Source of the DNA: Deltaproteobacteria bacterium
GTDB taxonomy: Bacteria; Desulfobacterota; Deferrisomatia; Deferrisomatales; BM512
DNA length: 48,595 bases
Direction of reading: 5' to 3'
NCBI GenBank assembly: GCA_002869015.1
Contig: PKTT01000059.1
Span: forward strand, 1-48,595
Shown piece by piece: positions 23,299-45,500 of this stretch (position 1 is its first letter; the number at the start of each line of letters is the position of its first letter). The position numbers and the translations under genes are program-made. The notes below the pieces were generated by a model, which did no database searches, had not been told where the DNA came from, and saw only the letters and a program-made list of their open reading frames with translations.

Positions 23299-24471
23299 TT
23301 ATCGCTCAACGGCTAGAGCGACACCCATACCGCCTCCAATACAGAGTGTAGCAAGACCTTTTTTAGAGTCTCTGCGCTTCATCTCATAGAGCAGTGTGGT
23401 TAGAATACGCGCTCCCGAAGCCCCGATTGGGTGACCAAGCGCAATAGCGCCGCCGTTAACATTTACTTTGTCAACATCCCAGCCCATTTCCCTGTTAACC
23501 GCTATCGCCTGAGAGGCGAATGCTTCATTTGCCTCAATAAGGTCTAGGTCGTCAACACCCCAGCCCGCCTTGGCAAGCGCAGCCTTGGAAGCAGGGATTG
23601 GCCCCGTCCCCATGATTTTGGGGTCAACGCCTCGGGTGGCCCAGCTCACAATTGTGGCTAGGGGTGTGATCCCACGCTTTGCAGCCTCCTCTTCGGTCAT
23701 CAGAACAAGCGCTGCTGCGCCGTCGTTTATGCCGGAGGCATTACCCGCCGTAACTGTTCCATCCTTTTTGAAGGCAGGCCTCAGCGCGGAGAGCGATTCA
23801 AAGGTGGTGCCAGGGGTTATGTGCTCATCATCCTCAAAGAGTACCTCTTTTCTGCGCACCTTCACGGTTAGGGGAACTATCTCCTACTTAAAGAGGCCAT
23901 CGCGCTGGGCTTTCTCTGCTTTCTGCTGTGACGCGGCTGAGAAGCGATCCTGATCCTCACGGGTAATGCCAAACTTTTCAGCTACGTTCTCAGCGGTTAT
24001 TCCCATGTGATAATTATTGAAGACGTCGGTTAGCCCGTCTTTTATCATCGTATCGACAAGCTCCCCTGACCCCATTCTGATGCCGCCGCGAAGCGGTGCG
24101 CAATGGACTGCCGCGCTCATATTCTCCTGCCCGCCTGCTATTACGATATCAGCATCGCCAAGGAGAATTGATTGACATCCGAGGGCAACCGTTCTCAATC
24201 CGGAGCCACAAACCTGATTTACGGTTATCGCCGTTGAGGTCTCCGAAAGACCTGCCGCTATAGCCGCTTGGCGAGCGGTGTTTTGTCCGCAACCAGCGGT
24301 CAAAACGTGTCCGAATATGATGTCGTTTACTTCACCGGCATCCACGCCTGCTCTCTTTAGCGCATCTTTGATCGCTGTAGCCCCAAGCTGATGGGCGGGT
24401 ACAGAGGTAAGGGTGCCGTTAAATTTGCCAACTGGCGTACGCGCCGCAGAGGCTATAACTATCTTTTTCAT
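23299..24471 (-). pseudogene. atoB: Acetyl-CoA C-acetyltransferase interrupted by an in-frame TAG
   Basis: A thiolase of otherwise perfect length (390 residues counting the stop position; family about 391). All landmarks are intact: Cys88 in QVCGSGLRTV, the NEAFASQ block, GHPIGASG with the catalytic His, and CIGGGMG. At codon 196 (minus, 23884-23886) the frame reads TTT AAG TAG GAG ATA GTT, i.e. LFK[13 protein letters not shown], exactly where homologues read FKDEIVPV. The frame is unbroken on both sides and no shift is needed. This is either a recent nonsense mutation, a suppressed UAG codon, or a sequence error. The ATG start is preceded by AGAGGAG. The role would be acetoacetyl-CoA formation or cleavage in fatty-acid or butyrate metabolism. 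Confidence 0.92.
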
Positions 24472-44492: not shown

Positions 44493-45500
44493 GTGAAAGA
44501 CACTGAACGCGAGCTGTACCTCTATAAATTGACCGAGGGCCTCGCTTCGTTTGAGAGTACCGCCTTGCTTGACGAAGAGGCGCTGAAGATCTTCGTCGAT
44601 CTTTTTAGCGCAGCAGGGGGAATCTGCGTGGTGCGTTCGACCTTTACGCAGCCAATGACCTTTGCATCCCAGATAAATGTAAATGTTTCTGAAGATGTTC
44701 AGCAGGATTGGATAGAGCTTTCACTAAAAAAAGGCCTGTCGGAGATCAACTCCATCAAGACTTTATCGGGTGATAAGTTCAATGATTTTTTTGGAAAACT
44801 CCTTCCGGATAACTTTAACAAGGCGCTGCTGGTGCCCCTGCACAATGGTGGAGAAAATTTCGGTATTGCGATACTCCTTGGGGATGTTGAGGGAGGCGAA
44901 ATCACCTTTGACAGTGAAGAGGCAGAATTCGTATCCGGGCGGGTAGCGATAGCTTTCAAGATAGCTTTGCGATATCAGGAAGCCCTTGGCCTGGCATATA
45001 TAGATTCCCTTACAGACCTTTATAACTCCAGGTATCTACCTGTAATTTTGGATCGAAGACTTCAGGATGCCCGTAAAAACTCTCAACCGCTGAGCCTGCT
45101 CTTTCTCGACATGGACAACTTCCGGGAGGTCAATAATGAGCATGGGCACCAGGCGGGGGGCAAGGCCCTCATAGAGGTCGGCTGGATACTTGAGCGGCAC
45201 GTAAGGGCAGAGGATACAGTCATACGTTATGGCGGCGATGAGTATACGGTGGTTCTCCCTGCCGCGTCCCTCGAGAGCGCAAAGGAAATCGCCGAACGTA
45301 TACGGGTGGCGATTCATGACCACATCTTCCTAAGGCGGGAGGGGCAAGAGGTGCATTTAACCGCCAGTATCGGTGTTGCCAATTATCCAGCGGATGCCGA
45401 TACACCGGAAGCGCTCCTGCACTTGGCCGATCAGGCTATGTACCGGGGCAAAGAGACCACGCGAAACGCGGTCTATTCAGCTGCAAAAAACGGAAAATAG
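44493..45500 (+). CDS. GAF-GGDEF diguanylate cyclase
   Basis: A soluble 335-aa protein. A GAF-like sensor is at about 20-160. The GGDEF domain (about 165-330) starts with DSLTDLYNSR and has the active-site GGDEY at 247-251, a common variant, plus an intact inhibitory I-site R238-x-x-D241. It should make c-di-GMP and be feedback inhibited. GTG start (44493) after GACGGGGATA. It is directly followed by hisS with no gap, perhaps cotranscribed. The PilZ protein at 15.1 kb is a possible effector. Confidence 0.9.
   Translation: MKDTERELYLYKLTEGLASFESTALLDEEALKIFVDLFSAAGGICVVRSTFTQPMTFASQINVNVSEDVQQDWIELSLKKGLSEINSIKTLSGDKFNDFFGKLLPDNFNKALLVPLHNGGENFGIAILLGDVEGGEITFDSEEAEFVSGRVAIAFKIALRYQEALGLAYIDSLTDLYNSRYLPVILDRRLQDARKNSQPLSLLFLDMDNFREVNNEHGHQAGGKALIEVGWILERHVRAEDTVIRYGGDEYTVVLPAASLESAKEIAERIRVAIHDHIFLRREGQEVHLTASIGVANYPADADTPEALLHLADQAMYRGKETTRNAVYSAAKNGK

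Follow-up and report, generated by a model that had tools for sequence, protein, structure and literature searches.

In the 48,595-nucleotide stretch of DNA analysed here (the window), an acetyl-CoA acetyltransferase (thiolase) frame of 390 codons runs from ATG to TAA (23299..24471, minus strand) and is interrupted only by an in-frame TAG at codon 196 (23884..23886, minus strand), which is probably a consensus base error, introduced by assembly or sequencing, in a draft genome. A single-base difference would have produced this TAG; the true base would make codon 196 a sense codon, UAG would not be decoded as an amino acid, and the organism itself would carry an undamaged gene. Several internal stops are scattered over the draft genome; this TAG belongs to them and is not special. 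Internal stops of this kind in draft genomes are already known. For RefSeq and reassembled genomes, a published study linked spurious internal stops to read coverage, read quality, sequencing platform and assembler, with more such stops where coverage was low and read quality poor (PMC11017572). We infer from the 67 contigs of the source genome that it is a metagenome assembly.

The interrupted frame has the features of a complete thiolase. When it is read with X at the TAG, which lies in the context GLFK*EIVPL, it matches the full-length TIGR01930 profile with 480 bits (cut-off 240.55), and Pfam Thiolase_N spans both sides of the stop; the one uninterrupted frame of a TIGR01930 thiolase is broken at codon 196. 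The translation contains the segments NQVCGSG, GHPIG and CIGGGMG, which we take to be the carriers of the catalytic Cys, His and Cys, respectively. ORF calling divides the frame into an N-terminal fragment of 195 residues (23884..24471, minus strand), 94% identical to the protein of G001, a genome of the same genus, and a C-terminal fragment of 188 residues that starts at a GTG (23299..23865, minus strand). The single TAG in an otherwise open thiolase frame, as described in the initial annotation, is thus confirmed. Further thiolase genes, for which the annotation had proposed to look, are indeed present: a profile search identified four other full-length members of the family above its cut-off.

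The comparison with related genomes places the stop in a strongly conserved gene. The search set comprised 39 genomes, namely the source genome (G000) and 38 relatives, and the thiolase was matched at E <= 0.001 in 31 of them. After the source genome itself, the best match comes from G001, whose gene is free of internal stops and whose protein shares 96% identity, so that the frame in the window is not a product of chance. Gene order is shared as well, since 33 of 40 window ORFs (picked by hand out of 60 called) match contig C117 of G001 in the same order. In this syntenic gene, codon 196 is GAG (Glu), one base away from TAG. A contig scan gave sequences at most 67% identical among the 80 of 585 relatives listed, a set from which records close to the source genome may be missing. 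In an alignment of 16 sequences, made up of the source sequence and one best match per genome for the 15 highest-scoring others, the column of codon 196 holds D nine times, E three times, A twice, R once and the stop once. An acidic residue is therefore found in 12 of the 15 relatives, and within this alignment codon 196 is a variable site.

The two sides of the TAG look very much alike in terms of selection. Relative to G001, dN/dS is 0.014 before the TAG and 0.013 after it, in both cases with saturated dS (2.7 and 1.5). When the amino-acid changes were polarised with the other 14 sequences, five were assigned to the source lineage (besides the stop), ten to G001 and one remained ambiguous; the five derived changes are spread over about 875 nonsynonymous sites, and one of them falls 3' of the TAG. 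These comparisons show strong purifying selection before as well as after the TAG. Selection on the thiolase has thus lasted up to very recent times, or still continues. This pattern does not separate an assembly error, a new mutation and read-through from one another. The view of the initial annotation that the stop is either very recent or an error still stands, with five lineage changes besides the stop and a sense codon in G001.

Further internal stops were sought in 892,890 bases, or 35% of the 2,526,772-base assembly. A stop was taken as a junction when the same frame continued beyond it, the codon usage before and after it resembled that of coding DNA, and no overlapping frame was stronger. 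There were 27 junctions in an initial 351,930 bases and 34 in a further 550,961; the two sets share 10,001 bases, and two of the 34, being repeats, were dropped. The resulting 59 junctions were translated with X in place of the stop and compared with Pfam, a procedure that addresses stops rather than frameshifts and would overlook a stop close to the end of a gene, in a short gene or in one lacking Pfam domains. Eight of the 59 have their stop within a single Pfam domain (five TAG, three TGA, no TAA), which corresponds to roughly nine internal stops per Mb in the sampled part. Among the others, 45 have no domain across the stop, five have no Pfam match at all, and one, where a Polyprenyl_synt domain starts three residues before the stop, was counted as a gene boundary.

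Besides the TAG inside Thiolase_N, these eight stops include a TAG inside the transport domain of a DppB-like peptide transporter permease (C30:84898; L185:4439-5398), a TAG in a Big_9 repeat protein (C1:91008), a TAG in the C-terminal domain of pheT (C27:65063), a TGA in a merR-type gene (C27:64350), a TAG and a TGA inside the domains of comM/ChlI (C61:89308, L253:9308 and C61:89647, L253:9647), and a TGA in a C_GCAxxG_C_C family gene (C30:14668; L181:14497-15000); the names pheT, merR and comM were given from Pfam matches. PheT is a core tRNA synthetase subunit. Its TAG and the merR TGA are only 0.7 kb apart (L267:4348-5063, G000:C27), and the two stops of comM are separated by 0.34 kb. When the DppB-like protein was compared with plasmids, many homologues were found, at less than 60% identity. 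A probable internal TAA was also observed at C55:34339 (L243:14337-14339), flanked by open frames of 277 and 274 codons and lacking a start codon in the 77 codons after it; it was left out of the eight stops because no Pfam domain spans it.

G001 has sense codons at the four sites compared: Glu in the thiolase, Ser (TCA) in pheT, Arg (CGG) in merR and Asp in the C_GCAxxG_C_C gene. Random single-base changes in this codon usage are expected to yield 52% TAG, 28% TAA and 20% TGA. The observed 5/0/3 distribution (TAG/TAA/TGA) does not depart significantly from this expectation (exact P 0.13, or 0.45 when the probable TAA is added), and five or more TAG among eight would occur with P = 0.41, on a small number of stops. 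An excess of TAG is not seen among the internal stops, small as their number is. The same scan applied as a control to 373,600 bases of G001 gave 30 junctions, two of them without a Pfam match, and in none of the 30 does the stop fall well within a Pfam domain. In one G001 junction (L274:3230-4432, C135), a TAG falls exactly at the start of ABC_tran, with ABC_membrane before it in the same ABC exporter frame, and this is probably an internal stop too. A low rate of internal stops is thus not unique to the source assembly; the figures are eight in 0.89 Mb for the source genome versus about one in 0.37 Mb for G001, a difference too small to prove.

A side question concerns selenocysteine. The source genome carries a tRNA-Sec gene (L155:973-1070, G000:C40), and the organism may accordingly recode UGA. 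The C_GCAxxG_C_C family appears in a table of selenoproteins (PMC9312934), and two other genomes (L226 and L234) have a TGA at the conserved Cys of this family, a likely selenocysteine site. For the TGA listed above, whose SECIS check consisted of one fold, selenocysteine was ruled out: G001 has Asp at this position, and the Cys of GYNCAES is intact. The position is not a cysteine one in nine other relatives either, where the same column holds Ser, Asp, Pro (twice), Glu, Leu, Ile and a gap (twice).

TAG also serves as an ordinary stop in the window. The 40 hand-chosen ORFs end in TAG 12 times (the thiolase fragment included), in TAA 14 times and in TGA 14 times, and UAG is therefore neither rare nor absent as a stop, as it would be under reassignment. 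Nine of the 11 TAG-ended ORFs other than the thiolase could be compared with G001, where the stop is TAG in five and TAA in four. The TAG of the ORF at 44493-45500 (45498-45500) is directly followed by an in-frame ATG, and a cell that read UAG through efficiently would join both genes into one product; the matching pair in G001, a GGDEF protein and histidyl-tRNA synthetase, has a TAA in between. The initial annotation had already held the normal use of TAG as a stop against recoding, and the wider count bears this out in general.

Read-through of UAG at the thiolase, either by a suppressor tRNA encoded in the unassembled part of the genome or by leaky termination, was also considered. Selection is equally strong before and after the TAG, and pheT also holds an in-frame TAG. 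Of the 34 matches that a tRNA family search of the assembly gave at E <= 0.001, 33 exceed the cut-off; three further matches are weak. ARAGORN typed 30 tRNA loci and three of the other four, including tRNA-Sec; the fourth, cut by a contig end, is by eye a Leu tRNA with anticodon TAG, and the three weak matches were not recognised as tRNAs by ARAGORN. Trp, Tyr and Ala tRNAs and the Ile tRNA with anticodon GAT are absent from the typed set. Many contigs begin or end in or beside a tRNA gene (for example C39, C41, C7, C16, C36, C43, C46, C47, C59 and C67; in the window at 13-99), and the assembly apparently broke at such genes. The assembled tRNA set being incomplete, a suppressor tRNA could therefore be missed. 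However, no CTA anticodon occurs among the 33 matches above the cut-off and the four weaker ones of this incomplete set. A scan for a CTA anticodon-loop/T-loop pattern gave seven matches, versus 16 for the reversed control; three of the seven are Leu or Gln tRNAs and ARAGORN finds no tRNA at the other four. In G001, 37 tRNA matches were obtained and none of the 30 typed loci is CTA. The RF1 gene is present (529.5 bits, cut-off 423.25); the Glu and Ser codons of G001 at the thiolase and pheT sites also speak against read-through, as do the window genes ended by TAG and the occurrence of internal TGA stops. An unassembled amber-suppressor tRNA that would partly read UAG, yielding full-length thiolase, DppB-like permease and PheT while other genes would still be ended, is thus improbable, and so is read-through of the thiolase TAG in general. 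The suppressor tRNA invoked in the initial annotation is accordingly not seen, and the tRNAs missing from the assembly leave it at low odds. Insertion of pyrrolysine, as in methylamine-using Deltaproteobacteria, is hardly credible here. Some marine Deltaproteobacteria do carry pyl genes together with selC and make dual use of Sec and Pyl (PMC8318568), and the source genome has both tRNA-Sec and an MttB-family gene. The search covered PylS, PylD, the MttB family and a CTA tRNA in an assembly that is 95.45% complete. The best PylS match reached only 23.6 bits (cut-off 178.15), the PylS matches trace to two genes, EpmA and LysS, and PylS was matched at E <= 1e-15 in none of the 39 genomes, the source genome included; the best PylD match gave 24.5 bits against 150.05. 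The single MttB-family match has no internal stop and lies below the trimeth_pyl cut-off. To our knowledge, thiolase is not a pyrrolysine enzyme. The earlier suggestion of pyrrolysine at this TAG is therefore not supported.

A real and very recent nonsense mutation, which would inactivate the thiolase, be fixed or segregating, and be tolerated through the other thiolases, is a more serious alternative, although it seems clearly less probable than a consensus error. The single base step from the GAG of G001, the four other family members and the five derived changes, too few for a gene long free of selection, are all compatible with it. Real nonsense mutations would indeed look the same as consensus errors. 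What argues against it is that the similar stops in pheT and, twice, in comM are harder to accept as real, and that the thiolase has no second lesion. The stop in pheT, the two in comM and the proximity of the merR and pheT stops thus favour consensus errors over real mutations. The initial annotation had reasoned that ordinary decay would usually add further lesions. This agrees with the single lesion of the thiolase, but other conserved genes of the assembly also carry a lone TAG or TGA, and one carries both. Two half-thiolases, the second restarting at the GTG at 23865, could in principle assemble into an enzyme, and a GGAG is found 15 bases before this GTG. This arrangement is very improbable, as the break would fall inside the Thiolase_N domain and G001 has GTC instead of GTG. 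A consensus error in the draft genome remains the preferred explanation of the thiolase TAG. A perfect gene with just one in-frame stop looks like a case of recoding, and caution is required, as the wider scan reveals scattered TAG and TGA stops in conserved genes. If read-through were true, the organism would suppress amber codons without using pyrrolysine, a notable case that the present evidence does not favour.

The thiolase TAG can finally be set beside three known situations. As in pyrrolysine recoding (pylTSBCD), the UAG stands in frame within a gene that is conserved before and after it. Recoding of that type uses methylamine methyltransferases, whereas the host gene here is a thiolase and the one MttB-family gene is free of internal stops; neither PylS nor PylD is found above its cut-off, no CTA tRNA was detected in the incomplete tRNA set, and the dual Sec and Pyl system described in PMC8318568 is not seen in the source genome. 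The likeness to amber suppression or UAG reassignment lies in the presence of an in-frame UAG in several conserved genes of the assembly, but in this genome UAG is an ordinary stop, RF1 is present, the suppressor tRNA was not found and TGA stops occur too. The spurious stops of draft genomes in PMC11017572 were tied to read coverage, whereas those described here are known from the assembly alone, where error and mutation are not separable. In both cases the genes are otherwise intact, more than one type of stop is involved, and the stops are scattered over the assembly.
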